Shown piece by piece: positions 17,721 to 51,079 of a stretch of DNA of 64,000 nt. Location of the stretch: the NCBI RefSeq assembly GCF_964355755.1, contig NC_092674.1, positions 29,252,001 to 29,316,000 of the forward strand, read 5' to 3'. The notes under the pieces were generated by a model that had not been told where the DNA came from, did not search any database, and was given only the letters and a program-made list of their open reading frames with translations. The first letter of the stretch is position 1. Every line of letters starts with the position of its first letter. Source of the stretch: Antedon mediterranea (Eukaryota; Echinodermata; Crinoidea; Comatulida; Antedonidae). The position numbers and the translations under genes were made by a program.

Positions 17721-18690
17721 TCATGGATATAGTCTTGTTTTCTCCAAATATAATGGATATGGTATCATCCATATTGTGAGTGTACAACTGCAGAGAGGTT
17801 CTGTTGGTTCTGTCACTACCCGGATGCTTGTATTCCCAGTTGCATGCCAATACATATTAGATACATCACATGTTAAAAGTTGTTGGTCATTTTCCTGACG
17901 AATCTCCCGGATGCAGTATTGATTCGAGTTGTTGTGCATCTCATCTTCCGTACCATTTCTCGACCACAAGTACTCGACATTCAGAAGACTCCCTGCAGTT
18001 ATAGCACAAATGAAGCAAATTAATTTTAATCGATTTTGGAATAATATGGAGAGTATTCGTAAAACATCTTTGCACAGGTTGTTTTGCACTTTCACACATA
18101 AACGAAATATCCGTGTCATTTGTCATAACAGTGTAAGTGTAACTTTGATTTACTGTTTTGAGAAAACGTGTATTACCGTTTCCAACATCGTATAAGTAGA
18201 GTCTCACCTGGTCTGAAAGTTCATCCTCACAAAATACATTCACTAAATCTCCAATACCTGCGGACATAGGTATCGGACCGCAGACTATGTTTGACATACA
18301 TTTTGGAAGAACGACCAAATTTGTAACGTGCATTGTATACAATCCAGAATCTGCCAGGGCAGCATCAGTTATTGTCAGTGTATTGGTTGTGTAATTATTA
18401 TACGTTTCTTTACATTGTTTTATCGACAAACTAAAACGATCTTGACGTAGACCCAGTACATTTGTATTAAATTTATATTGGTAATTCGAAAGCCACAAGT
18501 CAGTACAAAATACACGTATATACCAAAATAGAACGGATTTTTCTCCTGCTGAACAATCAGTACTACATCTCATGGTCACGTTCTCTTCTTCATAAACCGT
18601 GACATTATGCATTACAACATTCACATTACAGGTTACACGATGCAGAGCCGAAATCAAGAATAGCACCACTGACAATGCAAACAACGTCAT
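17721..18690 (-). pseudogene. Ig-receptor gene A, decayed (pseudogene)
   Basis: Same layout as its intact neighbours: signal peptide (MTLFALSVVLFLISALHRVT), then Ig-like domains 1 and 2. Three lesions separate it from them. First, a 27-bp in-frame deletion at about 18331 removes the DSGLYRC cysteine of Ig domain 1. Second, a net 38-bp deletion at about 18020 shifts the frame at the start of Ig domain 3, so the N-terminal frame ends at 17941 after 249 residues and the rest continues in another frame (17721-18119). Third, the lysine-bearing membrane segment is lost, ending ...IWMIPYPLYLEKTRLYP. It could only make a truncated soluble product. Domain 1 resembles gene B and domain 2 resembles gene C. 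Confidence 0.8.
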
Positions 18691-19539
18691 TATCTTCGAC
18701 TACTGTAGGTATATAACCGTTATAGTTACAAACAATGCTATGATGTTCATTTTTTTTTTAAAGTGAATCAAAACTTACTTTCTATTATAAGAACTGTACC
18801 ATTAGGTACAGTTGGGTTTGTTTGTTCGATAATATTGTTTGTCATGGATAATATAATTTGATCAGTGGCAATCAACCAATATTAAAATGAAACTACTACA
18901 ATAATTACAAAACTAACAATAATGTAGACTATACACGCAATATTGCCTATATATCATAATCATATATTGCATATTTTAATTTATCTAGTAATATTATTAA
19001 TCACGTTTTAAAAGTACTACTATACTATTACGTAATATTACGATACGCAAGAGTTTCTATATTATTAGTTTGTCTTACACGATATGATATCGATATTGTT
19101 ACTGGCATAACATTAAATTTAGAATTATTATAATAGCTACCGTTAACATTGGTTAAATATATGAAAAGTTTCTTAACTTAAAAATAAGAAAGAGTTTAAC
19201 TCCGAATAAAGATAATTTGATATAATCATTATTATCTTATTATTTAAAGCTCGTTGTAATATATACAACATATATAGGTTAAAATATAAGTATAATCATT
19301 CTACAGTATAAATGTGTACATACGTATATAGGCCTATTATGTCATTTATTTGTCAAAATTGTCGTCGTTCGTTAAAATTACCTTGTTTCTTCAAAGTAAT
19401 ATATTATCTACTACCAAACTGGTGTCATGCTGCTCTGGCAACCGATTAACCAAAGAGTAATACGTGTAACAACAGTGAGCAAGGTGGCAGAGTGTAAAGA
19501 AATGTTCAGTTCGTTTTTATCATGGATAGTCTTGTTTTC
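18691..19539. repeat. Intergenic; flank duplicated between genes A and B
   Basis: About 18700-19440 is nearly identical to about 20690-21740 upstream of gene B: same GTACCATTAGGTACAGTTGG, TATCTAGTAATATTATTAAT-type stretches and the AT-rich end near 19300. This shows A and B arose by tandem duplication of a ~2-kb unit. No gene is seen in it. Confidence 0.8.
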
Positions 19540-20664
19540 TTACAGTCTACCGTCATATATATCAACAACCTCTATCTGTGCATCCTCTGTGTTGTCAGTA
19601 CATTTGATGTTGTTACACCTCTTACATATCACAATGAGAACAGCTATCATTAAGAAGACTTTGATTATCAATGGTATCATCCATATTGAGAGTGAACAAC
19701 TGCAGAGAGGTTCTGTTGGTCCTGTCACTACTCGGATGCTTGTGTTCCCAGTTGCATGCCAATATTTATTAGATACATCACATGATAGAAGTTGTTGGTC
19801 ACCTTCCTGACGAATCTCCCGGATGCAGTATTGATTTGAGTTGTGCATCTCGTATGTGGTACCATTTCTTGACCACGAGAACTCGACATTCAGAATACTC
19901 CCTGTAGTTATAGCACAAATGAAGCATACTTTATCACCATCGTAGAATGGCGTGTTGTTTAGCGGCAGGACTTGGATCGATGCTGTTTCAATAACATGGA
20001 GAGTATTCGTAAAACATTTTTGCCCTCGTACACTCTCACACATAAACGAAATACTTGTGTCATTTGTCATTACAGTGTAAACGTATCTTAGTGTTTCTTG
20101 GTTTAAGGTTTTGAGAAAACGTGTATTACTGTTTTCAACATTGTACAAGTAGAGTTTCAACGGGTCTGTATGTTCATCTTCACAAAATACATTCACTAAA
20201 TCACCAATACCTGCGGACATAGGTATCGGACCACAGACTATGTTTGACGTACATTTTGGAAGAACGACCAAATTTGTAACGTGCATTGTGTAGTTTGCTT
20301 CTACAACTTGGCATCTATACAATCCAGAATCTTCCTGGGCAGCATCAGTTATTGTCAGTGTATTTGTTGTGTAATTATTGTAAGTTTCAGTACACTGTTT
20401 TACCGACAAACTAAAACGATCTTGACGTTGACCCAGTGCATTTTTGTTAAATTTATATTGGTAATCAGAAAGCCACAAGTCAGTGCAAAATACACGTAGA
20501 AACCAAAATAAAACGGATTTTTCTCCTGTTGAACAATCGGCACTGCATCTCATGGTCACGTTCTCTCCTTCATAAACCGTAACATTATTGGCATCTGCAG
20601 CATTCTCATAACATGTTACACAACGCAAGGCCGAAATCAAGTACAGCACGTACAATGCAAGCAT
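19540..20664 (-). CDS. Ig receptor gene B: three Ig domains, Lys-containing TM, short tail
   Basis: An intact 374-residue type I membrane protein in one exon. It has a signal peptide (MLALYVLYLISALRCVTC). V-type Ig domain 1 spans about 24-135 with MRC, a core Trp and DSGLYRC. Ig-like domain 2 spans about 136-235 and domain 3 about 236-320 (VCFICAI...YCIREIR...LLSCDVSN). The membrane segment is about 327-347, with Lys near 335 inside it. The 27-residue tail ends VVDIYDGRL. N-glycosylation sequons are frequent. The intramembrane Lys with no tail signalling motif is the design of activating immune receptors that partner an acidic adaptor; this is inference. I do not recognise a named family. The start is the first ATG, directly before the hydrophobic leader. 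Confidence 0.85.
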   Translation of the reverse strand: MLALYVLYLISALRCVTCYENAADANNVTVYEGENVTMRCSADCSTGEKSVLFWFLRVFCTDLWLSDYQYKFNKNALGQRQDRFSLSVKQCTETYNNYTTNTLTITDAAQEDSGLYRCQVVEANYTMHVTNLVVLPKCTSNIVCGPIPMSAGIGDLVNVFCEDEHTDPLKLYLYNVENSNTRFLKTLNQETLRYVYTVMTNDTSISFMCESVRGQKCFTNTLHVIETASIQVLPLNNTPFYDGDKVCFICAITTGSILNVEFSWSRNGTTYEMHNSNQYCIREIRQEGDQQLLSCDVSNKYWHATGNTSIRVVTGPTEPLCSCSLSIWMIPLIIKVFLMIAVLIVICKRCNNIKCTDNTEDAQIEVVDIYDGRL

Positions 20665-21844
20665 CCTGAATTTATCCGACTTGTAGAACCACTATTGTTT
20701 TAGTTACAAAAACTGCTATGATGTTCATTTTATTTCGAAAGTGAATCAAAACATACTTTCTATTATAGGAACTGTACCATTAGGTACAGTTGGGTTTGTT
20801 TGTTCGATAATATCGTTTGTTGGATAATATAATTTGATCAGTGGCAATCAACCAATATTAAAAATGAAACTACTACAATAATTACAAAACTAACAATAAT
20901 GTAGACTATACACGCAATATTGCGTAGGCATATCATAATCATATATTGCATATTTTAATTTATCTAGTAATATTATTAATCACGTTTTAAAAATACTACT
21001 ATACTATTAAGTAAAATTACGATACGCAAGAGTTTCTATATTATTAGTTTGTCTTACACGATATGATAACGATATTGTTACTGGCATAACATTAAATTTA
21101 GAATTATTATAATAGCTACCGTTAACATTGGTTAAATATATGAAAAGTTTCTTAACTTAAAAATGAGAAACAGTTTAACTCCGAATAAAGATACTTTGAT
21201 ATAATCATTATTATCTTATTATTTACGAGTGAGTGAGTGGCCGAGCGGTTACAGTGGAACCGTAATTACGTAGCCATAACATCGGCAGGGGTTCGAGGCT
21301 CCATGGTTCTGGTGGTAGAACGAATCTTCTCGGATAAGGACTATAAACCGTAGGTCCAGTGTACACATAGCTCGTGTGCACTTTAAAGAACCTAGTACAT
21401 CTTTCGAGACGAGTAGGGGGTTACCCCGGTGTATTAGTACATCACAGCCACTGGGCCCTCTGGGAGACCAGTCTTTGACTGAAGAGATTACCCAGTATAA
21501 ATATATATTTCAATCAATCAATTTCAATTCAATTTCAAGCTCGTTGTAATATATACATTATATATTGGTTAAAATATAAGTATAATCATTGTACAGTATA
21601 AATGTGTACATACGTATATAGGCCTAAACATAGGCCTATTATGTCATTTAGTTGTCAAAATTGTCGTCGTTCGTTAAAATTACCTTGTTTCTTCGAAGTA
21701 ATATATTATCTACAGTACTACCAAACTGGTGTCATGCTCTGGCAAACGATTAACAAAAGAGTGAATACGAGTAACAACGGTGAGCAAGGTGGCAGAGTGT
21801 AAAGAAATATTCAGCTCGTTTTTATCATGGATAGTCTGGTTTCC
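20665..21844. repeat. Intergenic; duplicated flank of genes A/B with later SINE
   Basis: Paralogous to 18691-19440, interrupted by the SINE at about 21229-21530. No gene is seen on either strand. Confidence 0.75.
21229..21530 (+). mobile_element. tRNA-derived SINE
   Basis: GAGTGGCCGAGCGGTTACAG is a tRNA-like box A and GGGTTCGAGGCTCC box B, as in Leu/Ser tRNAs. The non-tRNA body contains GGACTATAAACCGTAGGTCC and ends in CAATCAATCAATTTCAATTC. The paralogous site upstream of gene A reads straight through ...TTATTTAAAGCTCGTTGT..., so the SINE inserted after the duplication. A second copy lies at 40478-40748. Confidence 0.85.
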
Positions 21845-22960
21845 TTACAGTCTACCGTCATATATATCAACAACCTCTATCTGTGCATCCTCTGTGTTGT
21901 CAGTAGGTTTGATGTTGTTACACCTCTTACATATCACAATGAGAACAGCTATCATTAAAAAGACTTTGATTACCAATGGTATCATCCATATTGTGAGTGT
22001 ACAACTGGAGAGAGGTTCTGTTGGTTCTGTCAATACCCGGATGCTTGTGTTCCCAGTTGCATACCAATACGTATTAGATACATCACATGTTAAAACTTGT
22101 TGGTCATCTTCCTGACGAATCTCCCGGATGCAATATTGATTTGAGTTGTGCATCTCGTATGTGCTACCATTTCTCGACCACGAGTATTTGACATTCAGAA
22201 GACTCCCTGCAGTTATAGCACAAATGAAGCATATCTGGTCACCAGCGTAGAATGTAGTTCTATTGATCGGAACAACTTGAATCGATTTTGGAATAACATG
22301 GAGAGTGTTCGTAAAACATCTTTGCACAGGTTGTTTTCCACTTTCACACATAAACGAAATATCGGTGTCATTTGTCGTCACGGTGTAAGTGTAACTTTGA
22401 TTTGATGTTTTGAGAAAACGTGTATTACCGTTTCCAATATCGTATAAGTAGAGTCTAATCTCATCTGAAAGTTCATCCTCACAAAATACATTCACTAAAT
22501 CACCAATACCTGCGGACATGGGGATCGGATTGCAGACTATGTTTGATAGACATTTGGAAAGAATGACCAAATTCAATGTTAACAAAATCGTTGAGTTTGA
22601 AACTGTTATCATTCCACATTTATACCAACCAGAATCTACCTGGACAGCATCTGTTATTGTCAGTGTACTTGTTGTGTAATTATTATACGTTTCATTGCAT
22701 CGCTTTACCGATATATCAAAACGATCTTCTTGAGGCGAGTCCAATATATAATGGTTAAATTCATATCGGTGATCAGAAAGCCACACGTAAATGGAGCCTA
22801 TACGTAGATACCAAAGTAGAACGGTTTCTCCTGCTGAGCAATCTGAACTACATCTCATGGTAACGTTTTCTCCTTCATAAACCGTGACGTTATTCGTTTC
22901 AAAATGTATATGACATGTTACACAAACCAGGGCCAAAATCAAGTATAGCAACATAGACAT
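21845..22960 (-). CDS. Ig receptor gene C: three Ig domains, Lys-containing TM, short tail
   Basis: An intact 371-residue single-exon protein. It has a signal peptide (MSMLLYLILALVCVTC). Ig domain 1 has MRCSSDC and DSGWYKC. Domain 2 runs from about 132 (KCLSNIVCNPIP). Domain 3 has ICFICAITAGSLLNVKYSWS and LTCDVSN. The membrane segment is about 324-344 with Lys near 332, and the tail ends VVDIYDGRL as in gene B. Domain 1 is the most diverged in the cluster (RIGSIYVWLSDHRYEFN) whereas domains 2-3 match gene A, so ligand contact is likely to differ. No introns lie within the coding region. Confidence 0.85.
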   Translation of the reverse strand: MSMLLYLILALVCVTCHIHFETNNVTVYEGENVTMRCSSDCSAGETVLLWYLRIGSIYVWLSDHRYEFNHYILDSPQEDRFDISVKRCNETYNNYTTSTLTITDAVQVDSGWYKCGMITVSNSTILLTLNLVILSKCLSNIVCNPIPMSAGIGDLVNVFCEDELSDEIRLYLYDIGNGNTRFLKTSNQSYTYTVTTNDTDISFMCESGKQPVQRCFTNTLHVIPKSIQVVPINRTTFYAGDQICFICAITAGSLLNVKYSWSRNGSTYEMHNSNQYCIREIRQEDDQQVLTCDVSNTYWYATGNTSIRVLTEPTEPLSSCTLTIWMIPLVIKVFLMIAVLIVICKRCNNIKPTDNTEDAQIEVVDIYDGRL

Positions 22961-23342
22961 CTTTTCAAGCGAACGTTTAATTTACTCTGACATGATATGA
23001 TTGCTTTGATTATCATCAACGGGTTTTTTTTTCGAAAGTAAAATCTCAATACCTATATTAAATATACACTGTACTTTAAATTGGTTTTGTTTTGACAAAC
23101 GACAAACATTCACTTTTCAACAAGTTTTCGTAAGCCACTAACACGAAACCCATATGATCAATTTTAAAAGTTGGATATGCGTTTGTGGAGTTGGCCTAAT
23201 TTAGATTAAAGCTTGTTGAAAAGAATCCACCTCACAACATTATGTAGGCCTCACTGCAGTATAATCATTGAGTTACAGACATTACATTGTGGTACCAACC
23301 TCGAGGTGTATATGCAAATTAATTTGATTCAGTTCACCCACG
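22961..23342. other. Intergenic between Ig genes C and D
   Basis: 382 bp, AT-rich, nothing recognised beyond flanks of the two genes. Confidence 0.5.
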
Positions 23343-25226
23343 TTATAAATTGTCAGTTTCTTCGTAGTCATTATTAATATGATCCACAACCAAACCGATA
23401 CCATGATCAGGCAACCAATCTTGATATCTTGGTTCCTCTAAAACATGATATAATTGGCCCATCGTCGTATCCACAGATCGCTCTTCTCGAAGCGTGTCGT
23501 CATGAAGTCTTCGATTGTCAATAGGCTGTGACGTCATCTGGTGACGAGTGATTGCAGAATTCTGTTCAGCACTTATTTCATCATCAGGTATTTCTTGATA
23601 TACATTAGTTACGTCATCTGTGGACAATATTTTGTTATCTTTTTCTAACCATGATCTCTGTTCTTCTTTAACGGGTTCAACAACCTGCTGCGGAGTCCTC
23701 GGAGCAAATGAAGATCTCTGCCTTTGTATTCTTCTTCTATCATCGGATATTTCGTTATAAACACGCGATACATTATTTTTCGGGCGAATTGGTACTAACA
23801 ATATCTTGTCTTGTTCATAAACGTGTTCTTGATCTAGTTCACCAAAATGTCTTTTCCGATTATCTTGGATATTGCCATCGAATTCCCGTTCTGGTGACTG
23901 CTGCTCCTGATGCTGTCTACCAACAAGTGAATGATCTTGATTGTTGCTATCAACTTCTTGTTCTTGCTGTTCCTGGTCAAGTGTACTTAAAGGAACTGAT
24001 TGACGATTGCCATCAAATATTTGTGGCTGGTCCTCTTCTTCGACGCCGTGAGTAATTGTATGTGGATGGTTGATTCCATTGTGATAGATATTTTCTGCTA
24101 AAGTGACGCCTGTAGATTCATTCATTTGAATTAATTGTACATTGTCAGTGTTGATCAAGGGTTTAACGCGTATACAACTCTTACAGCATATCGCAAGGAG
24201 CACAACTATTATGACGCAGATGATGACTGGCACAAAGAACCATAACATACGTTTCCATCTTAGTAAATAATGTAAATCTATCACCAGTGTTGTATTTCCA
24301 GTTGCATGCCAATACTTATTAGATACAACACATGTTACAACTTGTTGGTCATCTTCCTGACGAATCTCCTGGATGCAGTATTGATTTGAGTTCTGCATCT
24401 CATCTTCGGTACTATTTCTCGACCAAAAGTACTCAACATCTACAAGACTCCCTGCAGTTATTATGCAAACAAAGCATACTTTATCACCAGCGTAGAATGG
24501 GGTGTTGTTTAGTGAAAGGACTTGGATGGATGTTGTTTCAATAACATGGAGAGTATTTGTAAAACATGTTTGTCCTTGTTTATTTTCACACATAAACGAA
24601 ATATCTGTGTCGTTTCTCGTAACGGTGTAATTGTAACTTAACTCTTTAGTATGGTTTAATATTGTAAGAAAACGTGTACCACCTTTTGTACCGAAATACA
24701 AGTGGAGTGTCAGCTGGTCTGAAAGTTCATCCTTACAAAATACATTCACTAAATCTCCAATACCTGCGGACTTGGGTATAGGACCGCAGACTATGTTTGA
24801 CGTACATTTTGGAAGAACGACCAAATTTGTAACGTGCATTGTGTAGTTTGCTTCTACAACTTGGCATCTATACAGTCCAGAATCTGCCTGGGCAGCATCA
24901 GTTATTATCAGTGTATTTGTTGTGTAATTATTATACGTTTCTTTACATTGTTTTACCGACAAACTAAAACGATCTTGACGTTGACTCAGTGCATTTTTGT
25001 TCAATTTATATTTGTAATCAGAAAGCCACAAGTCAGTGCAAAATACGCGTAGAGACCAAAATAAAACGGATTTTTCTCCTGTTGAACAATCAGCACTGCA
25101 TCTCATGGTAACGTTCTCTCCTTCATAAACTGTAACATTATTCGTTTCAAAATTCACATCACATGTTACACTACGTAGAGACGCCAAGTACAGTATAACC
25201 AACACAAGTGTTCTAGTAAGCGTCAT
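23343..25226 (-). CDS. Ig receptor gene D: chimeric ectodomain with long Tyr-rich cytoplasmic tail
   Basis: An intact 627-residue single-exon protein. The start is taken as the ATG at 25226, just before the leader MTLTRTLVLVILYLASLRSV; the frame extends upstream only from a GTG. Residues 1 to about 310 (three Ig-like domains) differ from gene E at only about four positions. After GNT (plus-strand position about 24297) the sequence switches completely: TLVIDLHYLLRWKR, an uncharged membrane segment (LWFFVPVIICVIIVVLLAIC, about 327-346), then about 280 cytoplasmic residues. The tail is rich in Gln, Glu and Asp and has SRVYNEISDD, TNVYQEIPDD, GQLYHVLEE and NDYEETDNL, which are candidate SH2-docking YxxI/L sites. 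None strictly meets the (S/I/V/L)xYxx(I/V/L) ITIM rule. Inferred to be the signalling partner of Lys-type neighbours. Confidence 0.85.
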   Translation of the reverse strand: MTLTRTLVLVILYLASLRSVTCDVNFETNNVTVYEGENVTMRCSADCSTGEKSVLFWSLRVFCTDLWLSDYKYKLNKNALSQRQDRFSLSVKQCKETYNNYTTNTLIITDAAQADSGLYRCQVVEANYTMHVTNLVVLPKCTSNIVCGPIPKSAGIGDLVNVFCKDELSDQLTLHLYFGTKGGTRFLTILNHTKELSYNYTVTRNDTDISFMCENKQGQTCFTNTLHVIETTSIQVLSLNNTPFYAGDKVCFVCIITAGSLVDVEYFWSRNSTEDEMQNSNQYCIQEIRQEDDQQVVTCVVSNKYWHATGNTTLVIDLHYLLRWKRMLWFFVPVIICVIIVVLLAICCKSCIRVKPLINTDNVQLIQMNESTGVTLAENIYHNGINHPHTITHGVEEEDQPQIFDGNRQSVPLSTLDQEQQEQEVDSNNQDHSLVGRQHQEQQSPEREFDGNIQDNRKRHFGELDQEHVYEQDKILLVPIRPKNNVSRVYNEISDDRRRIQRQRSSFAPRTPQQVVEPVKEEQRSWLEKDNKILSTDDVTNVYQEIPDDEISAEQNSAITRHQMTSQPIDNRRLHDDTLREERSVDTTMGQLYHVLEEPRYQDWLPDHGIGLVVDHINNDYEETDNL

Positions 25227-25298
25227 TTTAGTGGATGGATGGTGTCGAACAATTATGAATGAATGAGTGAACGGAGAATATACTTTTTGTTCATACAC

Positions 25299-25665
25299 TC
25301 ACTTTTCTGTGAAATATAATTTCTAAACCAGGAAATTGCGTAATTTGTTTCGTATCTGTTTCCGAAACAACATTATATAATAATATGCTCTATAATGTTA
25401 ATTGCGTATAGTTGATATTAGTATCTCGTGATGAGAAATAACTTATTTTCAAGGTAAACGTATTATCTTTCACGTATCAATGATACCAGCGGCTAACTAT
25501 AGTTTAGACTAGTGAGAGTAGTAAGTAGTGTACATGGATTGACACCGTGTAGAATTGTCCAGTCCATGGTATGGTCCGATACCCATTTTCCCTAAATTTA
25601 TAATAGTAATATTATACACACCTTCAACAGTAATAGACTTTGTCATCTCTCATTAATGTAAGCAT
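25299..25665. other. Intergenic between genes D and F1
   Basis: Sequence shared almost base for base with units 2 (29642-30011) and 3 (35018-35421). It likely carries the 3' UTR and poly(A) region of F1 on the right and the promoter of D on the left. No coding signal. Confidence 0.6.
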
Positions 25666-27042
25666 TTAATGACTGAGTGTTGTGCAGTATAATTGACCGC
25701 CCTGAGTAGATTTGAAACTATCATTAGAACCAGGCCGAGATACACGCATTCGCTCAATAGTATCCGCATACACGTGTCCTGGATAAGGTGGTTTTCTAAC
25801 TTCGTGCTCTTTGTCAGCTAGCCCAGAGTATTTCTTTTGATCATTCTGACGAACATCATTCTTAATAGTGTCGTAAATCGATTCCTTTCGGTCATTTGAC
25901 TGTCGTTTAAGCTTTCTTGTTTTGGAACAAATCACAACAGCCAGGCACACAATTGTGATTATGAAAACCGTATTAGTTGATAACAACAGAAGTATAATGA
26001 TAAACATGGTTGAAGGATCGGCGAACGTTGGTAGGTTAGAAGTAAGTCCAGTCGTCTGGTCAGATGAAATAAGTATCGGTGTTACCGCAACATTGATGGG
26101 CGCGCTTACAGCTGCATACTGGTGGCGGTGCTTAGTAGACACGTTGCAGAAAATGAGCTCCTTACCATTTGTAGCTTCAACCTCATTGACGCAGTACTGG
26201 TTTGATCCAGGATGCTGGTCATTTTCATGACTTGTTGACCACCAATATTCAACGTCTGTAAAACCTTCTCCACGGATTACGCAGACGAAACACATCCGGT
26301 TGACATCTTGTTGCCAGAGCTGTAGAACTTCAACTATCATCTTCTGGATAATATGCATGTTGTTTGTGACACAACCTCTTTGTTCTTGGTTCCGGTTATT
26401 CACCAGTTCACATACGAAATATACAATAGTATCATCACTGCTAACGGTGTAAACGTGACTTAGCGTCAGGTTTGTAATCTGACGGTTTACTGTCTGAAGT
26501 AAACGCTTTATATGATCTTTCTCGTTAAACGCATACAGATTTAACTCCGTATTTTGGTCTTTACCGTCAGCCACACACGACAAGGTCACTAAATCACCAG
26601 GAACGGCAGATATTGGTACTCGATTGCAGGTTGGATTTTGCAAACACAGATCAACAACTTTGAATTCTATAGAACTTACAGAATTCGTACCAGCAACACC
26701 GCATTGATATACCCCAGCATCGCCTTGATCCGCGCCAGTTATCGACAGTGTACTTGTGATGTTCATTACGTCGTCTGCGTTGCGTTTCTTGTAAACGGAC
26801 ACACTGTAACGGTTTTGGCGGGAATCCAGAAGATCAAGATTCAATTTGTCAAATACATCGACAAGCCACATTTTCCCGGTGTACCATAATATGCTTTCTG
26901 TATTCCCAGAAGACGTGATCGAACAACTGAGAGTCGCCGTTTCTCCTTTGTAAATTTGAAAATCTGGGGTTCGTACAATCTCAACCCCATCTGCATAATA
27001 TATGAACACTAACTGTAGAAATATTTTAGTAACAACTGCCAT
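25666..27042 (-). CDS. Ig receptor F1: three Ig domains, ITIM-like cytoplasmic tail
   Basis: An intact 458-residue single-exon type I protein. It has a signal peptide (MAVVTKIFLQLVFIYYADG). V-type Ig domain 1 has LSCSIT, WYTGK and DAGVYQC. Domain 2 runs from LCLQNPTCNRVPIS. Domain 3 has MCFVCVIRGEGF, SNQYCVNEV and IFCNVS, and shares its SNQYC-x-x-E pattern with genes A-E. The uncharged membrane segment is about 348-372. The 86-residue tail has SIYDTI (Tyr about 390), which meets the ITIM consensus. It is followed after 11 residues by YSGL (Tyr about 405), so the pair is also close to ITAM spacing. PPYPGHVYADTI and GQLYCTTL follow. Inference: an inhibitory or dual-signal receptor paired with the adjacent Lys-type gene. 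Confidence 0.87.
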   Translation of the reverse strand: MAVVTKIFLQLVFIYYADGVEIVRTPDFQIYKGETATLSCSITSSGNTESILWYTGKMWLVDVFDKLNLDLLDSRQNRYSVSVYKKRNADDVMNITSTLSITGADQGDAGVYQCGVAGTNSVSSIEFKVVDLCLQNPTCNRVPISAVPGDLVTLSCVADGKDQNTELNLYAFNEKDHIKRLLQTVNRQITNLTLSHVYTVSSDDTIVYFVCELVNNRNQEQRGCVTNNMHIIQKMIVEVLQLWQQDVNRMCFVCVIRGEGFTDVEYWWSTSHENDQHPGSNQYCVNEVEATNGKELIFCNVSTKHRHQYAAVSAPINVAVTPILISSDQTTGLTSNLPTFADPSTMFIIILLLLSTNTVFIITIVCLAVVICSKTRKLKRQSNDRKESIYDTIKNDVRQNDQKKYSGLADKEHEVRKPPYPGHVYADTIERMRVSRPGSNDSFKSTQGGQLYCTTLSH

Positions 27043-27573: not shown

Positions 27574-27574
27574 T

Positions 27575-27625
27575 TAACACACTAGCGTTGTGTGTGAACA
27601 CACACTAGCATTGTGTGTGAACGCA
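27575..27625. repeat. 23-24-bp tandem repeat, about 2 copies (unit 1)
   Basis: CACACTAGCGTTGTGTGTGA-type repeats, each with a GTGTGTGAACACACAC hairpin-like core. Orthologous positions in units 2 and 3 have about 3 and 4 copies. Confidence 0.75.
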
Positions 27626-27770
27626 CCTGTATTTGCTTTGCGTTGTAAAAAGACCTTGCTATTTGCAACGCAGTGTATATATACAGCAACTACATCAGTC
27701 CATAGAGATATTATAAAATCTCTTCTCGAGTATCTGAACAAAGAGAGGCAAAAGTTCAAACCGTTTCTCA

Positions 27771-27931
27771 GTACACGGATGTCAGCATCAAGGGAAAAAA
27801 AGCCAGTTTCTTCCCTAAACCGAGTAAGTACTAGGTTACAATAAAAATATAGAGGAAGCAAGCCTAGAATATAGATTGATTCCAATGGTGACAAGAAAGC
27901 AATATTTGGTAAACGATAAATTTTTAGGACC
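27771..27931 (-). pseudogene. ALG8 terminal-exon relic, unit 1
   Basis: In the minus frame it reads YRLPNIAFLSPLESIYILGL as in ALG8 exon 12 (37703-37964), then shifts frame near GAAACTGG and is cut off by the deletion that removes the last third and stop codon. The intronic sequence before it is partly conserved, with an extra ~85 bp (27935-28018). Not functional. Confidence 0.85.
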
Positions 27932-28438
27932 ACAATGGAAATAAGTTTGCCGTCTCGGTACTTTTTTGTGTTTTTTATCCTATTGATTTTATATCAGAAT
28001 AAAGGAAAAAAAAAAAATGTGGATCTCTGTAAAACAATAACAAAACAACTTTTTGAAACAATTTGTTAGTTTTAAAAAGCAATAATCTTTATTAATTAAA
28101 AAAAAAGTATTAAAGCATTCAATATTTCAAATTAATTGATCAACATTATTAAAACGTTTTCTATTCAATAGATCATAAAATATGTAAAAATAAAATAAAT
28201 TAGAATTCTATATAGGTATCAAAAGTAACAATGTTTTTACATTGTTTATTCACTTCAGAAATCTGACCAATCATTAGTTGTTTTAAAGTCATGTGATAAA
28301 ATGTAAATGATCTGAATGAATACGTGTAAATTACATACATTAAACAAGAAAGAGTTTTAAAGTTTAATAGTGAGCAAGTTAGAGTGTAAAGAAATGATAA
28401 ATTTCAGTTCGTTTTTATCATAGTTGTTGTTTTCTTAG

Positions 28439-29569
28439 TCAACGGTCATATATGTCAACAACCTCCATCTGTGCATCAACTGTGTTGTCAGTAGGTTTGA
28501 TATTGTTACACCTCTTACAGATCACAATGAGGACAGCTATCATTAAGAAGACTTTGATTACCAATGGTATCATCCATATTGTGAGTGTACAACTGCAGAG
28601 AGGTTCTGTTGGTTCTGCCACTACCCGGATGCTTGTATTCCCAGTTGCATGCCAATACTTATTAGATACAACACATGTTACAACTTGTTGGTCATCTTCC
28701 TGACGAATCTCCTGGATGCAGTATTGATTTGAGTTCTGCATCTCATCTTCGGTACTATTTCTCGACCAAAAGTACTCAACATCTACAAGACTCCCTGCAG
28801 TTATTATGCAAACAAAGCATACTTTATCACCAGCGTAGAATGGGGTGTTGTTTAGTGAAAGGACTTGGATGGATGTTGTTTCAATAACATGGAGAGTATT
28901 TGTAAAACATGTTTGTCCTTGTTTATTTTCACACATAAACGAAATATCTGTGTCGTTTCTCGTAACGGTGTAATTGTAACTTAACTCTTTAGTATGGTTT
29001 AATATTGTAAGAAAACGTGTACCACCTTTTGTACCGAAATACAAGTGGAGTGTCAGCTGGTCTGAAAGTTCATCCTTACAAAATACATTCACTAAATCTC
29101 CAATACCTGCGGACTTGGGTATAGGACCGCAGACTATGTTTGACGTACATTTTGGAAGAATGACCAAATTTGTAACGTGCATTGTGTAGTTTGCTTCTAC
29201 AACTTGGCAGCTATACAATCCAGAATCTGCCTGGGCAGCATCAGTTATTATCAGTGTATTTGTTGTGTAATTATTATACGTTTCTTTACATTGTTTTACC
29301 GACAAACTAAAACGATCTTGACGTTGACCCAGTGCATTTTTGTTCAATTTATATTTGTAATCAGAAAGCCACAAGTCAGTGCAAAATACGCGTAGAGACC
29401 AAAATATAACGGATTTTTCTCCTGTTGAACAATCAGCACTGCATCTCATGGTAACGTTCTCTCCTTCATAAACTGTAACATTATTCGTTTCAAAATTCAC
29501 ATCACATGTTACACTACGTAGAGACGCCAAGTACAGTATAACCAACACAAGTGTTCTAGTAAGCGTCAT
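28439..29569 (-). CDS. Ig receptor gene E: three Ig domains, Lys-containing TM, short tail
   Basis: An intact 376-residue single-exon protein. The start ATG is at 29569 before the leader MTLTRTLVLVILYLASLRSV; the frame continues upstream only to a GTG. The ectodomain is nearly identical to gene D (for example Ile for Val in SVIFW, Gly for Ser in NALGQRQ, Ser for Arg in GLYSC). The remainder is that of the A/B/C type: SIRVVAEPTEPLCSCTLTIW, a membrane segment about 331-351 with Lys near 339 (IPLVIKVFLMIAVLIVIC), and a 25-residue tail ending VVDIYDR. Inferred activating-type member paired with D (same ectodomain) and F2 (neighbour). Confidence 0.86.
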   Translation of the reverse strand: MTLTRTLVLVILYLASLRSVTCDVNFETNNVTVYEGENVTMRCSADCSTGEKSVIFWSLRVFCTDLWLSDYKYKLNKNALGQRQDRFSLSVKQCKETYNNYTTNTLIITDAAQADSGLYSCQVVEANYTMHVTNLVILPKCTSNIVCGPIPKSAGIGDLVNVFCKDELSDQLTLHLYFGTKGGTRFLTILNHTKELSYNYTVTRNDTDISFMCENKQGQTCFTNTLHVIETTSIQVLSLNNTPFYAGDKVCFVCIITAGSLVDVEYFWSRNSTEDEMQNSNQYCIQEIRQEDDQQVVTCVVSNKYWHATGNTSIRVVAEPTEPLCSCTLTIWMIPLVIKVFLMIAVLIVICKRCNNIKPTDNTVDAQMEVVDIYDR

Positions 29570-29641
29570 TTTAGTGGATGGATGGTGTCGAACAATTATG
29601 AATGAATGAGTGAACGGAGAATATACTTTTTGTTCATACAC

Positions 29642-30011
29642 TCACTTATCTGTGAAATATAATTTCTAAACCAGGAAATTGCGTAATTTGTTTCGTATCT
29701 GTTTCCGAAACAACATTATATAATAATATGCTCTATAATGTTAATTGCGTATAGTTGATATTATTAGTATCTCGTGATGAGAAATAACTTATTTTCAAGG
29801 TAAACGTATTATCTTTCACGTATCAATGATACCAGCGGCTAACTATAGTTTAGACTAGTGAGAGTAGTAAGTAGTGTACATGGATTGACACCGTGTAGAA
29901 TTGTCCAGTCCATGGTATGGTCCGATACCCATTTTCCCTAAATTTATAATAGTAATATTATACACACCTTCAACAGTAATAGACTTTGTCATCTCTCATT
30001 AATGTAAGCAT
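29642..30011. other. Intergenic between genes E and F2
   Basis: Near-identical to 25299-25665; 370 bp with no coding signal. Confidence 0.6.
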
Positions 30012-31388
30012 TTAATGACTGAGTGTTGTGCAGTATAATTGACCGCCCTGAGTAGATTTGAAACTATCATTAGAACCAGGCCGAGATACACGCATTCGCT
30101 CAATAGTATCCGCATACACGTGTCCTGGATAAGGTGGTTTTCTAACTTCGTGCTCTTTGTCAGCTAGCCCAGAGTATTTCTTTTGATCATTCTGACGAAC
30201 ATCATTCTTAATAGTGTCGTAAATCGATTCCTTTCGGTCATTTGACTGTCGTTTAAGCTTTCTTGTTTTGGAACAAATCACAACAGCCAGGCACACAATT
30301 GTGATTATGAAAACCGTATTAGTTGATAACAACAGAAGTATAATGATAAACATGGTTGAAGGATCGGCGAACGTTGGTAGGTTAGAAGTAAGCCCAGTCG
30401 TCTGGTCAGATGAAATAAGTATCGGTGTTACCACAACTTTGATAGGCGCACTTGCAGCTGTATACTGGTGGCGGTGCTTAGTAGACACGTTGCAGAAAAT
30501 GAACTCCTTACCATTTGTACCTTCAACCTCATTGACGCAGTACTGGTTTGATCCCGGATGCTGGTCAATGTCACGACTTGTTGTCCACCAATATTCAACG
30601 TCTGTAAAACCGTCTCCACGAATTACGCAGACGAAACACACCCGGTTGACATCTTGTTGCCAAAGCTGTAGAACTTCAACTATCATCTTCTGGATAACAT
30701 GCATGTTGTTTGTGACACAACCTCTTTGTTCTTGGTTCCGCTCATTCACCAGTTCACATACGAAATACACAATAGTATCATCACTGCTGACGGTGTAAAC
30801 GTGGCTTAGCGTCAGGTTTGTAATCTGACGGTTTACTGTCTGAAGTAAACGCTTTATCTGATCTTTCGCGTCAAACGCATACAGACTTAACTCGGTATTT
30901 TGGTCTTTACCGTCAGCCACACACGACAAGGTCACTAAATCACCAGGAACAGCAGATATTGGTACTCGATTGCAGGTTGGGTTTTGCAAACACAGTTCAA
31001 CAACTTTGAATTCTATAGAACTTACAGAATTCGTACCAGCAACACCGCATTGATACACCCCAGCATCGCCTTGATCCGCGCCAGTTATCGACAGTGTACT
31101 TGTGATGTTCATTACGTCGTCTGCGTTGCGTTTCTTGTAAACGGACACACTGTAACGGTTTTGGCGGGAACCCAGAAGATCGAGATTCAATTTGTCAAAT
31201 ACATCGACAAGCCAAATTTGCCTGGTGTACCATAATATGCTTTCTGTATTTCCAGAAGACGTGATCGAACAACTGAGAGTCGCCGTTTCTCCTTTATAAA
31301 TCTGAAAATCTGGGGTTTGTACAATCTCAACCCCATCTGCATAATATATGAACACTAACTGTAGAAATATTTTAGTAACAACTGCCAT
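30012..31388 (-). CDS. Ig receptor F2: three Ig domains, ITIM-like tail
   Basis: 458 residues, single exon, colinear with F1 without gaps. Differences cluster in the ectodomain, for example VQTPD for VRTPD, WYTRQIW for WYTGKMW, AFDAKDQ for AFNEKDH and TTSRDIDQ for STSHENDQ. The leader, membrane segment and whole 86-residue tail (SIYDTI, YSGL, HVYADTI, QLYCTTL) are identical. This fits conserved signalling with a varying binding face. Confidence 0.87.
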   Translation of the reverse strand: MAVVTKIFLQLVFIYYADGVEIVQTPDFQIYKGETATLSCSITSSGNTESILWYTRQIWLVDVFDKLNLDLLGSRQNRYSVSVYKKRNADDVMNITSTLSITGADQGDAGVYQCGVAGTNSVSSIEFKVVELCLQNPTCNRVPISAVPGDLVTLSCVADGKDQNTELSLYAFDAKDQIKRLLQTVNRQITNLTLSHVYTVSSDDTIVYFVCELVNERNQEQRGCVTNNMHVIQKMIVEVLQLWQQDVNRVCFVCVIRGDGFTDVEYWWTTSRDIDQHPGSNQYCVNEVEGTNGKEFIFCNVSTKHRHQYTAASAPIKVVVTPILISSDQTTGLTSNLPTFADPSTMFIIILLLLSTNTVFIITIVCLAVVICSKTRKLKRQSNDRKESIYDTIKNDVRQNDQKKYSGLADKEHEVRKPPYPGHVYADTIERMRVSRPGSNDSFKSTQGGQLYCTTLSH

Positions 31389-32264
31389 TTTTAAAACAAA
31401 AAATTGTTTTTGCTAAATTAGATTTCGCAATACGACTACTATCCAGGTCTCTCGTCCATGGAAAGACAAATGCAACATTGGTTTCTATAAATATTTAAAA
31501 GATAATCAAAAGTTATCTTAAATGTTTTTTATTTCAGTATAACTGATTCACTTTCAGATTAGATATGGCTATATGCCATTTGTTTAGATAATATAATAGT
31601 TTATACAAACAGTAACATTCTGTTTATTTGAATACATATAAGCTACACATAGCTATAGGTTCCGATCATAATCATTTTTTTTGATGTTGCGGGCCCTTGT
31701 AAAAAAGTAATGTTATCAAACTGACCTGGGCCAGAGCTATATATGGTTTTGATCCTAAAAGAGAACTAACAACATATAAACAATTTAAATTAGTACTTTG
31801 TTTATGTATTATATCAAGCCAAGAAAGCTACAGTTTTGTTGTTTATTGACAGCTATGAATATGTAAAAGCCAGTTAACACACTAGCTTTGTGTGTGAACA
31901 CACACTATCGTTGTATGTGAACACACACTATCGTTGTCTGTGAACGCACTTGTATTTACTTTGCGTTGTAAATCGACCTTGCCATTTACAACGCAGTGTT
32001 ATATACAACAACTACATCAGTCCACAGAGATATTATAAAATCTCTGAGTATCTGAACAATGAGAGGCAAAAGCTCAAACCGTTTCTATGCATTTATTTTA
32101 TATATTCATTTTACCATTGATTTACAAAAAATTTAAAATAATTTCTTATACTATTTTAAATATATACTGTAATCTTTAACTTTTACTAATAAACCTTTGT
32201 TGTGACATTTTTCCTATTATTTGTAAGTAGTACTGAGGCCGAAATATAAATTTAACATGATTTC
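31389..32264. other. Intergenic between F2 and the ALG8 exon relic
   Basis: Shared with unit 3 (36799-37700) over most of its length. Includes three copies of the GTGTGTGAACACACAC repeat at about 31877-31950. No gene is seen. Confidence 0.6.
31877..31950. repeat. 23-24-bp tandem repeat, about 3 copies (unit 2)
   Basis: Units of the ACACACACTATCGTTGTATG type; same locus as 27575 and 37295. Confidence 0.75.
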
Positions 32265-32524
32265 TGAATGCGCTTATCTTTCTGTGAATGTATCTTCCCC
32301 TCCCGCTTTAATGAATTATAATAAAATTTAAACCAGGCCCATGAAACACCTGCTGCACAGTAGACGGATGTCAGCATCAAGGGAAAGAAAGCCAGTTTCT
32401 CCCTAAACCAAGTAAGTAATGTACTAAGTTACAATACAAATATAGAGGAAGTAAGCCTAGAATAATATAGATTGATTCCAATGGTGACAAGAAAGCAATG
32501 TGTGGTAAATGATACGTTTTTGGA
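32265..32524 (-). pseudogene. ALG8 terminal-exon relic, unit 2
   Basis: Full-length copy of the ALG8 last exon. One G is lost in the GGGG run near 32403 (frameshift), the TAG stop is changed to CAG, and a 3-bp insertion lies near 32460. The acceptor TTTTACAG is kept. No upstream ALG8 exons accompany it. Confidence 0.85.
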
Positions 32525-32826
32525 TCTCTGTAAAACAATAACAAAACAAACTTTTTGATACAAATTGTTAGTTTTAAAAAGCAATAATCTTTTTATAATT
32601 AATTATGAAAGTGATTGTTAAACAAAACAAAACTATAAACAATGAAACAGGAAGAATAATAAATAAATAAAAACAAAAAGAAGTAGCAGAGCATTAAATA
32701 TTTCAAATTAATTGATCAACATTATTAAAACGTTAACGTTTTTTATTCAATAGATCATACAATATGTAAAAATAAAATAAATTAGAATTCTATATAGGTA
32801 TCAAAAGTAACAATGTTTTTACATTG

Positions 32827-33667
32827 TTTTTATTTATTTTTATTTATTTTATTTATTTAATCGGTATAAAAAGACTCAAAATACAACTCATAGTTGAAAT
32901 GAAGAGCTTACATATGAAAATGATAATTCACATAGCCTAAACAAAGTTAAACGAAGAAAAAACACATTAAAGCCTAAGAAACAGTAATAATTACTGTATA
33001 ATTCGTTAAACTTAAAATTACTATAAAAAATGCACAAATTCTTAAATATACAATTTTAAAAAATAGAGACTAATATTAATAATCACATTATTTTTAAACA
33101 CCAATAAAATATATGTAAAATTCATTAAACTAAAAGTACAATAAAAATTGCACAAAATTCAAATTCAAAGGATGATATTAATAATTACAAATTCTTATAT
33201 TATATTTACAAATTTAAAAAATTGAATCTTATAAATCACATTTTTATAGTCCCATAAGTAGTTACAAAAAAAAATTTAAAGCATAAAACAACCACTTGAC
33301 AAAGAGACAATAGAACATACTCTTCGAAATGTCTTTAAAGGTTAATTGTCCAAATCTATTCATTATTTAAGAGTCCAATAACAGTTGGAATTGTTGATGC
33401 AGCAAGTCTTTTAGTCCGACATCGTGGCACATCAAACTTATTAACTTTACGCAAACACCTTGTCGGCTTTTCTTTTTCAGGGATCCATTCCTTAAAGCGA
33501 TCCGACTTTAGCAGCCCCTTTCCAAAGTTATAAAGAAGAACCTGACGTCTATGCTGCAATGTCTTTAACTTGAGGGTTTCAAGTGATTTTGCGTAACTAA
33601 CATAGTTTTGATATCCAATAATAAGTTTTACAACACGCTTTTGGATGAATTCAAGTTGATCACTCTG
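32827..33667 (-). mobile_element. 5'-truncated non-LTR retrotransposon inserted in unit 2
   Basis: The minus frame 33356 to about 33667 encodes a LINE reverse-transcriptase C-terminal region: LEFIQKRVVKLIIGYQNY, LKTLQHRRQVLLYNFGKGLL, then PRCRTKRLAASTIPTVIGLL. A ~500-bp 3' UTR follows and the element ends in a TTTAT-rich (A-rich on its own strand) tail at 32827-32860. Units 1 and 3 have uninterrupted ACATTGTTTATTCAC / ACATTGCTTATTCAT here, so insertion is younger than the duplication. A TGTTTA-like short target duplication is possible. Confidence 0.88.
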
Positions 33668-33859
33668 TTTATTCACTTCAGAAATCTGACCAATCATTGG
33701 TTGTTTTAAAGTCATGTGATAAATGTAAATGATCTGAATGATCACGTGTAAATTACATACATTAAACAAGAAAGAGTTTTAAAGTTTAATAGTGAGCAGT
33801 TAGGGTGTAAAGGAATGATAAATTTCAGTTCGTTTTTATCATAGTTGTTGTTTTCTTAG

Positions 33860-34990
33860 TCAACGGTCATATATGTCAACAACCTCCATCTGTGCATCAA
33901 CTGTGTTGTCAGTAGGTTTGATGTTGTTACACCTCTTACAGATCACAATGAGGACAGCTACCATAAAGAAGACTTTGATTACCAATGGTATCATCCATAT
34001 TGTGAGTGTACAACTGCAGAGAGGTTCTGTTGGTTCTGCCACTAACCGGATACTTGTATTCCCAATTGCATGCCAATACTTATTAGATACATCACATGTT
34101 ACAAGTTGTTGGTCATCTTCCTGACGAATCTCCTGGATGCAGTATTGATTTGAGTTCTGCATCTCATCTTCGGTACTATTTCTCGACCAAAAGTACTCAA
34201 CATCTACAAGACTCCCTGCAGTTATTATGCAAACAAAGCATACTTTATCACCAGCGTAGAATGGGGTGTTGTTTAGTGAAAGGACTTGGATGGATGTTGT
34301 TTCAATAACGTGGAGAGTATTTGTAAAACATGTTTGTCCTTGTTTATTTTCACACATAAACGAAATATCTGTGTCGTTTCTCGTAACGGTGTAAATGTAA
34401 CTTAACTCTTTAGTATGGTTTAATATTGTAAGAAAACGTGTACCACCTTTTGTACCAAAATACAAGTGGAGTGTCAGCTGGTCTGAAAGTTCATCCTTAC
34501 AAAATACATTCACTAAATCTCCAATACCTGCGGACTTGGGTATACGACCGCAGACTATGTTTGACGTACATTTTGGAAGAACGACCAAATTTGTAACGTG
34601 CATTGTGTAGTTTGCTTCTACAACTTGGCAGCTATACAGTCCAGAATCTGCCTGGGCAGCATCAGTTATTATCAGTGTATTTGTTGTGTAATTATTGTAA
34701 GTTTCATTACATTCTTTTACCGACAAACTAAAACGATCTTGACGTTGACCCAGTGCATTTTTGTTAAATTTATATTTGTAATCAGAAAGCCACAAGTCAG
34801 TGCAAAATACGCGTAGAGACCACAGTAGATTGGATTTGTTTCCTGCTGAACAATCTGAACTGCATCTCATGGTAACGTTCTCTCCTTCATAAACCGTGAC
34901 ATTATTCGTTTCCACATTCTCATCACATGTTACACTACGCAGAGACGTCAAGTACAGTATAATCAACACAAGTATTCTAGTAAGCGTCAT
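33860..34990 (-). CDS. Ig receptor gene G: three Ig domains, Lys-containing TM, short tail
   Basis: An intact 376-residue single-exon protein; the start ATG at 34990 precedes MTLTRILVLIILYLTSLRSV. Ig domain 1 begins MRCSSDCSAGNKSNLLWS, which is closest to gene C, then switches to the D/E type from VFCTDLWLSDYKYKFNKNAL onward: a mosaic. Domains 2-3 match E almost exactly. The membrane segment is about 331-351 with Lys near 339 (IPLVIKVFFMVAVLIVIC), and the tail ends VVDIYDR. Confidence 0.86.
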   Translation of the reverse strand: MTLTRILVLIILYLTSLRSVTCDENVETNNVTVYEGENVTMRCSSDCSAGNKSNLLWSLRVFCTDLWLSDYKYKFNKNALGQRQDRFSLSVKECNETYNNYTTNTLIITDAAQADSGLYSCQVVEANYTMHVTNLVVLPKCTSNIVCGRIPKSAGIGDLVNVFCKDELSDQLTLHLYFGTKGGTRFLTILNHTKELSYIYTVTRNDTDISFMCENKQGQTCFTNTLHVIETTSIQVLSLNNTPFYAGDKVCFVCIITAGSLVDVEYFWSRNSTEDEMQNSNQYCIQEIRQEDDQQLVTCDVSNKYWHAIGNTSIRLVAEPTEPLCSCTLTIWMIPLVIKVFFMVAVLIVICKRCNNIKPTDNTVDAQMEVVDIYDR

Positions 34991-35017
34991 TTTTAGTGGA
35001 TGGATGGTGTCGAACAA

Positions 35018-35421
35018 TTATGAATGAAAGAGTTAACGGAGAATATACTTTTTGTGCATACACTCACTTATCTGTGAAATATAATTTCTAAACCAGGAAA
35101 TTGCGTAATTTGTTTCGTATCTGTTTAATTAATTATTAATTGCGTATAGTTGATATTAGTATCTCGTGATGAGAAATAACTTATTTTCAAGGTAAACATA
35201 TCGTATTATCTGTCACGTATCAATGACACCAGCGGCAAACTCTTATAGTTTAGACTAAGCAGTAGTGAGAGTAGTAAGTAGTGTAAATGCATTAACACCG
35301 TGTAGAATTATCCAGTCCATGGTATGGTCCGATACCTCTTTTCCCAAAATTTATAATAATAATAATATGATACACACCTTCAACAGTAATAGACTTTGTC
35401 ATCTCTTATTAATGTAAGCAT
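35018..35421. other. Intergenic between genes G and F3
   Basis: Paralogous to 25299-25665 with small indels. No coding signal. Confidence 0.55.
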
Positions 35422-36798
35422 TTAATGACCGAGTGTTGTGCAGTATAATTGACCGCCCTGAGTAGATTTGAAACTGTCATTAGAACCAGCCCGAGATACA
35501 CGCATTCGCTCAATAGTATCCGCATACACGTGTCCCGGATAAGGTGCTTTTCTAACTTCGTGCTCTTTGTCAGCTAGCCCAGAGTATTTCTTTTGATCAT
35601 TCTGACGAACATCATTCTTAATAGTGTCATAAATCGATTCCTTTCGGTCATTTGACTGTCGTTTAAGCTTTCTTGTTTTGGAACAAATCACAACAGCCAG
35701 GCACACAATTGTGATTATGAAAACCGTATTAGTTGATAACAACAGAAGTAGAATGATAAACATGGTTGACGGATCGTCGAACGTTGGTAGGTTAGAAGTA
35801 AGCCCAGTCGTCTGGTCAGATGAAATAAGTATCGGTGTTACCAAAACATTGATGGGCGCACTTGCAGCTGCATACTGGTGGCGGTGCTTAGTAGACACGT
35901 TGCAGAAAATGAACTCCTTACCATTTGTACCTTCAACCTCATTGACGCAGTACTGGTTTGATCCCGGATGCTGGTCAATGTCACGACTTGTTGTCCACCA
36001 ATATTCAACGTCTGTAAAACCGTCTCCACGAATTACGCAGACGAAACACACCCGGTTGACATCTTGTTGCCAAAGCTGTAGAACTTCAACTATCATCTTC
36101 TGGATAACATGCATGTTGTTTGTGACACAACCTCTTTGTTCTTGGTTCCGCTCATTCACCAGTTCACATACGAAATACACAATAGTATCATCACTGCTGA
36201 CGGTGTAAACGTGACTTAGCGTCAGGTTTGTAATCTGACGGGTTACTGTCTGAAGTAAACGCTTTATCTGATCTTTCTCGTTAAACGCATACAGATTTAA
36301 CTCCGTATTTTGGTCTTTACCGTCAGCCACACAAGACAACGTCACTAAATCACCAGGAACGGCAGATAGTGGTACTCGATTGCAGGTTGGATTTTGCAAA
36401 CACAGTTCAACAACTTTGAATTCTATAGAACTTACAGAATTCGTACCAGCAACACCGCATTGATACACCCCAGCATCCCCTTGATCCGCGCCAGTTATCG
36501 ACAGTGTACTTGTGATGTTCATTACGTCGTCTGCGTTGCGTTTCTTGTAAACGGACACACTGTAACGGTTTTGGCGGAAACCCAGAAGATCAAGATTCAA
36601 TTTGTCAAATACATCGACAAGCCAAATTTGCCCGGTGTACCATAATATGCTTTCTGTATTCCCAGAAGACGTGATCGAACAACTGAGAGTCGCCGTTTCT
36701 CCTTTGTAAATTTGAAAATCTGGGGTTCGTACAATCTCAACCCCATCTGCATAATATATGAACACTAACTGTAGAAATATTTTAGTAACAACTGCCAT
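35422..36798 (-). CDS. Ig receptor F3: three Ig domains, ITIM-like tail
   Basis: 458 residues, single exon, ungapped against F1 and F2. It mixes F1-like (VRTPD, AFNEKD) and F2-like (TTSRDIDQ, VRGDGF-type domain 3) segments, a sign of exchange. The tail keeps SIYDTI, YSGL, HVYADTI and QLYCTTL with minor changes (KAPYPG, RAGSND, ending LGH). The membrane segment is uncharged. Confidence 0.87.
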   Translation of the reverse strand: MAVVTKIFLQLVFIYYADGVEIVRTPDFQIYKGETATLSCSITSSGNTESILWYTGQIWLVDVFDKLNLDLLGFRQNRYSVSVYKKRNADDVMNITSTLSITGADQGDAGVYQCGVAGTNSVSSIEFKVVELCLQNPTCNRVPLSAVPGDLVTLSCVADGKDQNTELNLYAFNEKDQIKRLLQTVTRQITNLTLSHVYTVSSDDTIVYFVCELVNERNQEQRGCVTNNMHVIQKMIVEVLQLWQQDVNRVCFVCVIRGDGFTDVEYWWTTSRDIDQHPGSNQYCVNEVEGTNGKEFIFCNVSTKHRHQYAAASAPINVLVTPILISSDQTTGLTSNLPTFDDPSTMFIILLLLLSTNTVFIITIVCLAVVICSKTRKLKRQSNDRKESIYDTIKNDVRQNDQKKYSGLADKEHEVRKAPYPGHVYADTIERMRVSRAGSNDSFKSTQGGQLYCTTLGH

Positions 36799-47157: not shown

Positions 47158-47276
47158 TATCTAATGCGTCAGATGATGATGATTCGGATGATGATGATGA
47201 TCCAGATGATGATGATCCAGATGATGATGATGATTTAGATAGTATAACAAATGCATATGATGATGACGATGATGAT
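47158..47276 (-). repeat. ATC/TCA trinucleotide expansion inside GPCR copy 1
   Basis: A GATGATGATG-rich tract encodes a run of serines (SKSSSSSGSSSS...) in the minus frame. Copy 2 has only SASESSPSDALD here. Confidence 0.85.
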
Positions 47277-51065: not shown

Positions 51066-51079
51066 ATATACAAGTATAC

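Follow-up and report, generated by a model that had tools for sequence, protein, structure and literature searches.

Introduction

Paired activating and inhibitory receptors are best known from vertebrates, where KIR, LILR/PIR, SIRP, Siglec-11/16 and CEACAM1/3 form pairs with short and long tails, and a related logic is found in a tunicate and a cnidarian. The Ig domains of KIR and LILR lie on separate exons, and the SIRP ectodomain has a V-C1-C1 composition. For the tunicate Botryllus, the literature describes an FcoR ectodomain of V-sushi-C2-C2, splice variants that join separate exons, and adjacent FF and FcoR genes for which an obligate heterodimer is proposed (PMC12065747). Hydractinia Alr and oyster CgIgIT2 are described as receptors that signal through their own tails (PMC12065747, PMC11999971). 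The locus presented here lies in a 64-kb window (C5:29252001-29316000) of the 354-Mb Antedon mediterranea assembly, and is compared with these systems below.

A tandem array of single-frame receptor genes

Eight stop-to-stop frames of 371-627 codons lie on the minus strand between positions 19540 and 36798 of the window, each with an uninterrupted path from ATG to stop. In every intact gene a single open frame covers the leader, three Ig domains, the one membrane segment and the tail. The adjacent single-frame genes of the original prediction were recovered where it had placed them, together with a broken ninth copy, A, and the eight intact frames are coding over their whole length, judged by dN/dS. 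The term intronless refers here to the coding frame from ATG to stop, UTRs apart. In transcriptional order the genes are F3, G, F2, E, F1, D, C, B and A. F1 (25666-27042, 458 aa) has a leader, three Ig domains and an uncharged membrane segment, with SIYDTI, YSGL, HVYADTI and QLYCTTL in its tail; F2 (30012-31388) and F3 (35422-36798), also of 458 aa, have the same architecture. G (33860-34990, 376 aa), E (28439-29569, 376 aa), C (21845-22960, 371 aa) and B (19540-20664, 374 aa) each have a leader, three Ig domains, a Lys-containing membrane segment (SIWMIPLIIKVFLMIAVLIVICKRC in B) and a short tail; C has the most divergent V domain. D (23343-25226, 627 aa), the partner of E, joins an E-type ectodomain to an uncharged membrane segment and a 279-aa tail containing YNEI, YQEI and YHVL. 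Copy A (17721-18690, minus strand) is of the E/B type and has decayed into two overlapping partial frames; it is 82.6% identical to B, and most of its membrane segment and tail is lost.

Two receptor designs are present, as the membrane segments and tails show, but they do not alternate as had been proposed. The genes instead form three tandem units of an F gene followed by an E-type gene (F3-G, F2-E and F1-D, with spacers of 431, 442 and 439 bp), after which come C, B and A. The view of the array as a converting family is supported: F1 and F2 are identical over about 600 bp, and D and E over most of the ectodomain. The F1 tract (25416-26044, minus strand) comprises the 3' part of the gene and the adjoining spacer, is identical to 29762-30390 of the F2/E unit, and represents a recent duplication or conversion tract. 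The 100-150 bp or so immediately before the F start codon (27236-27044 at F1) are 99-100% identical in F1, F2 and F3, unlike the farther 5' flanks, which diverge and contain many indels. This conserved stretch is likely a promoter or 5' UTR.

Other features of the window include a 119-codon frame between F2 and G (33356-33715, minus strand) that resembles a LINE-type reverse transcriptase at its C-terminal end. A gene for a 7TM receptor with a cysteine-rich ectodomain, adhesion-GPCR-like in appearance, is present in two tandem copies at 45306-47692 and 52751-55249 (minus strand), and in a 60-bp minisatellite at 51048-52267 (STRDARPTSITVLLVFSSNI...) both strands carry long open frames.

Domain fold and coding constraint

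All eight intact proteins scored above the Pfam cut-offs for V-set and Ig_3, with three Ig stretches in most of them, and a profile built from the eight matched Ig receptors in the PDB (FCRL5, CEA, TCR alpha V and NITR). AlphaFold models, for which the input was the eight sequences, had a low mean pLDDT of 54, and the parts taken as evidence were restricted to domain 2 and the V-like domain 1. In the E model, domain 1 can be superposed on V domains of TCR and antibodies with Z-scores of 11-12 and an rmsd of 2.2-2.6 Å over 95-100 residues, at about 16-26% identity. Domain 1 is thus predicted, from profile and model together, to be V-type, and the assignment of these proteins to the Ig superfamily holds by both Pfam and structure prediction. 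A Foldseek search with the three-domain F model returned SIRP-alpha as the best match (E 1.3e-10, 15% identity). As ICAM, nectin and IgLON scored like SIRP-alpha or better in a second structural comparison, we claim no orthology.

Pairwise dN/dS is mostly 0.3-0.6 across the Ig domains, membrane segment and tail, and for each pair compared it is about 0.3-0.5 along most of the sequence; the leaders contain too few changes for an estimate. The F frames are 93-100% identical to one another with no indels. Over the stalk, membrane segment and tail, E and C differ with a dN of 0.043 and a dS of 0.168, and B and C by 8 nonsynonymous and 2 synonymous changes, a comparison in which constraint is not clear. 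Since dN/dS is mostly 0.3-0.6 and the F frames are free of indels, each cluster frame appears, from its pattern of substitution, to be translated whole. These values also bear on the view that the array is birth-and-death debris, a set of recent, partly decaying duplicates without a dedicated function. The broken copy A and the near-identical units within the array would fit such an origin, but the eight frames of 371-627 codons are intact with dN/dS mostly about 0.3-0.5, and ectodomain dS reaches 0.4 between copies with no loss of frame. We regard debris as a very improbable explanation.

Membrane segments and tails

B, C, E and G have the membrane segment IWMIPLVIKVFLMIAVLIVIC, with one Lys, and a tail of 25-27 residues whose single Tyr fits neither an ITIM nor an ITAM. 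Among 54 sampled members of the wider family with a membrane segment, these four are the only ones with a charged residue in its core (0/46 sampled outside the cluster); they are close paralogues, and the conservation of the Lys does not amount to four independent observations. The uncharged membrane segment of F1-F3 has Ser-Thr-Asn-Thr at mid-depth and is followed by a tail of about 90 residues.

The Tyr-motif tails ascribed to F1-F3 and D were found, but taken singly they are no better than chance, and only the family-wide enrichment described below is significant. The SIYDTI of F1-F3 fits the ITIM consensus, and an ITIM occurred in 4279 of 20000 shuffled F3 tails (21%). A strict ITIM is absent from D, and its count of YxxI/L/V was equalled in 2955 of 20000 shuffled tails (15%). 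Because shuffled tails often match them, the F and D motifs prove little individually. An alternative reading of the F tail is YDTI-x11-YSGL, an ITAM-like motif with wide spacing. A canonical ITAM (spacing 6-8) was considered as the activating device within the cluster and rejected, as none is present there. Strong matches to the membrane segment and tail of E are confined to this cluster; elsewhere in the genome none was convincing. A derivation of the D tail from another gene was considered and rejected, as the genome yielded no second copy of it.

The main rival reading of this arrangement is that F and its downstream E-type neighbour are co-expressed as one receptor, an obligate heterodimer like that of Botryllus FF/FcoR. 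The E-type chain would bind ligand and F would signal, with the Lys pairing with the polar Ser-Thr-Asn-Thr patch of F and not with a separate adaptor. The three tandem units with their 431-442 bp spacers speak for such a receptor, as does the patch at mid-depth. The F membrane segment has no acidic residue, however, neither C nor B lies next to an F gene, and D is an exception in that its E-type ectodomain comes with a long tail of its own. We consider a heterodimer unlikely.

D and E share an ectodomain and differ in their signalling parts

A blastn comparison of D and E gave 99.2% identity (25599-24290 against 29945-28633) that stops abruptly at the end of Ig3; the junction in D lies at 24287-24290 on the minus strand, the alignment ending at 24290 in D and 28633 in E. 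Ectodomain dS is 0.011, compared with about 1.07 for the aligned membrane segment and tail. This hundredfold gap between the modules of two genes indicates that ectodomains were exchanged between the short-tailed Lys form and the long-tailed form. The original prediction of a paired activating/inhibitory architecture consequently has stronger support than was first thought. Near-identical ectodomains (99%) are joined here to differing signalling parts, and a basic membrane residue is found in the short-tailed genes (Lys in B, C, E and G) and not in D or F. In Siglec-11/16, the same pattern arises through gene conversion (PMC5701461).

The membrane segments of D and E are themselves homologous, with the Lys of E aligned to an Ile of D. 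Their alignment over the membrane and juxtamembrane region scored 69, compared with 34 +/- 6 for shuffled sequences, and none of 500 shuffles reached this value. Homology of the C-terminal parts is limited to this region, and the 3' flank of E holds no detectable remnant of the D tail. A simple frame truncation that left the D tail behind in this flank was not supported as the source of the short E tail, the score of the flank against the D tail being 318 and the shuffled mean 340.

A genome-wide intronless family

Searches with E and F3 revealed more single-frame receptors on C1, C3, C5, C7, C8 and C11. A more central member from C11, P0001, matched at least 70 places; almost every one lies in a frame of 378-1213 codons, whereas the generic V-set and Ig_3 models matched mostly exon-sized frames of 100-200 codons. 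The merged lists contain 108 places on nine chromosomes. At least one of these (C8:5.07 Mb) is not a receptor frame and the search counts are lower bounds, and we therefore place the family at no fewer than about 105 intronless Ig receptor genes; the family thus extends beyond this cluster. Tandem clusters among the merged places include 23 at C3:18.70-18.82 Mb, 19 at C11:15.81-16.12 Mb, the 8 described here, and others. In a tree the eight proteins of the cluster group together with support of 100/99.

The tails of the wider family are enriched in Tyr motifs. In the 41 tails outside the cluster, the ITIM-type pattern [SIVLT]xYxx[IVL] occurs 33 times (12.7 +/- 3.4 expected), YxxI/L/V 79 times (38 expected) and [ILVST]xYAx[ILV] 11 times (0.55 expected), counts reached in 0 of 1000 shuffles for each pattern. 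The C-termini of L039, L045, L060, L068 and L069 read LxYAxL...YAxI/L, resembling vertebrate ITIM plus ITSM tails. L091 (C11:5569950-5571600), an intronless gene with three Ig domains, ends in ETDYSELTPTTPSIYSEL, a canonical ITAM; the strict pattern arose in 12 of 20000 shuffles of its tail, a figure to be read with the fact that L091 was chosen among about 50 tails and that ITAM spacing is not enriched across the family. It adjoins close paralogues bearing other Tyr tails. L091 is 60-61% identical to its neighbours L053 and L097 in the ectodomain and 24-30% in the membrane segment and tail, whereas the tails of L053 and L097 are 80% identical to each other. By these identities, L091 is a second instance of tail exchange.

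L059 and L060 (C7:25.0708-25.0760 Mb) are adjacent intronless genes with one Ig domain each. L059 has an Asp and a His where the membrane segment begins and SEYTTL in its tail, and is a possible acidic-membrane partner; L060 has LTYAQL...TNYAVI. L089 (C11:16106600-16108350) is an intronless three-Ig member whose frame has no membrane segment, and is possibly a secreted form. More than 100 exon-sized V-set and Ig_3 matches are densely packed in C8:0.38-1.66 Mb and C8:4.70-6.15 Mb; these two stretches are giant multi-exon Ig receptor complexes, apart from the intronless family. Another repeated family, with frames of about 750-1370 codons and two Ig_3 domains each, is represented by L002 (C9), L006 (C10), L007 (C5) and L008 (C6).

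Signalling partners and host

The genome contains tandem SH2 exons of SHP2 at C3:14.097-14.101 Mb (E 3.6e-83) and a Syk SH2 match at C6:0.5449 Mb (E 5e-38). The Pfam ITAM model gave no genome match at E<=10, and the best TCR_zetazeta match, with an E of 0.28, fell short of the cut-off. Both are short, insensitive models with which no control gave a signal, and an adaptor somewhere in the 354 Mb could have escaped them.

The outcome of these two insensitive searches is compatible with a role in adhesion or self-recognition without an activating arm. The short forms would then be decoys or modulators competing for ligand, and the Lys would be tolerated or serve as an ER or sorting feature. ICAM, PECAM, IgLON and nectin are among the structural neighbours, and several other intronless members of the family (L021, L057 and L087) are short-tailed without a core Lys. 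Against it, a membrane-core Lys is seen in none of the 46 other members, and the stalk, membrane segment and tail have been kept between E and C at the dN and dS given above. We judge this explanation decidedly unlikely.

The host had been predicted to be an invertebrate, which is right and can be given more exactly as a crinoid echinoderm. The L-type SALMFamide GLRFHKGAPF is given for three feather stars (PMC9793003), and a 33-base degenerate pattern for this crinoid-type peptide had one match in the genome, the reversed control having none. The match sits in the frame ...NPTR-GLRFHKGAPFG-KR..., the expected precursor context. Mitochondrial COX1, sought in the assembly as a species marker, gave no match, and the peptide pattern took its place.

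Proposed mechanism

The reading we favour, and hold to be reasonably probable, is that this crinoid array of tandem, gene-converting, single-exon V-type Ig receptors is a paired activating/inhibitory recognition system. The receptors would be displayed on coelomocytes or epithelium, with the V domain reading surface ligands. The tailed forms (F, and probably D), once phosphorylated, would recruit SHP-type phosphatases, for which an SHP2 gene is present, and so inhibit. The short Lys forms (B, C, E and G) would activate by way of a partner whose membrane segment has an acidic or polar residue, with Syk acting downstream. They may derive from a tailed ancestor by truncation and gain of the Lys, and conversion would keep ectodomain specificity matched within a pair. 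By analogy with vertebrate receptors of this design, the cluster may serve an immune function.

A broader proposal, which we put forward tentatively and at somewhat less than even chances, is that crinoids have independently evolved an intronless repertoire on the scale of KIR/LILR, with at least 100 genes and with ITIM/ITSM, ITAM and Lys-membrane arms, whose activating and inhibitory partners continue to share ectodomains by conversion. If so, the recognition logic of vertebrate NK-type receptors would be an ancestral or a convergent deuterostome strategy. An echinoderm case in which tail exchange is visible in the sequence and SHP2 and Syk genes are present makes convergence versus inheritance directly testable, and with its single-exon genes the family lends itself to cloning, editing and counting in different individuals.

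Comparison with known systems

The literature searched yielded no paper combining intronless, immunoglobulin superfamily and ITIM, and nothing on crinoid Ig receptors. The proposal of an undescribed system stands for crinoids within that literature, but not for invertebrates in general, where ITIM/ITAM families have been described (Botryllus FcoR, Hydractinia Alr and oyster IgIT2). As far as the literature searched shows, what is new is the single-exon form, the family size, the occurrence in a crinoid and a tail exchange that can be seen in the sequence.

Like the cluster, Botryllus fester/FcoR is described as an invertebrate Ig-family system with adjacent gene pairs, one partner signal-less and the other with a Tyr-motif tail, and FF/FcoR resembles it further as a large polymorphic family with ITIMs (PMC12065747). 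FcoR differs in belonging to a tunicate and in having a hemITAM where the cluster has a Lys-bearing membrane segment (PMC12065747), and no sushi domain is among the Pfam matches at E<=10 in the eight cluster proteins. Hydractinia Alr and oyster CgIgIT2 are likewise invertebrate Ig-superfamily receptors with ITIM/ITAM motifs; the descriptions consulted make no mention of a Lys-membrane short form that carries the ectodomain of a tailed form (PMC12065747, PMC11999971). AcFREP1 of Aplysia shares with the cluster an Ig-superfamily gene reported to have no introns, but it is a fibrinogen-related protein and not a membrane receptor family (PMC11999971).

The vertebrate paired receptors and the cluster have in common near-identical ectodomains on opposite-looking membrane and tail designs, a basic membrane residue with a short tail set against a tail with candidate ITIM-type motifs, and a tandem arrangement with gene conversion, the last as in Siglec-11/16 (PMC5701461). 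Unlike the vertebrate receptors, the cluster consists of single-exon genes in an echinoderm, and the insensitive models used recognised no ITAM adaptor. Identity to the solved Ig receptors that the cluster resembles over three domains is only about 10-20%, with no evidence of orthology. All three Ig domains of each cluster gene lie in a single open frame; because of this difference in exon structure the cluster stands outside KIR/LILR, and because it has no sushi domain it stands outside FcoR. The cluster would work like a paired-receptor system while belonging to neither group, and is best read as an independently evolved receptor system of the paired type in an echinoderm.
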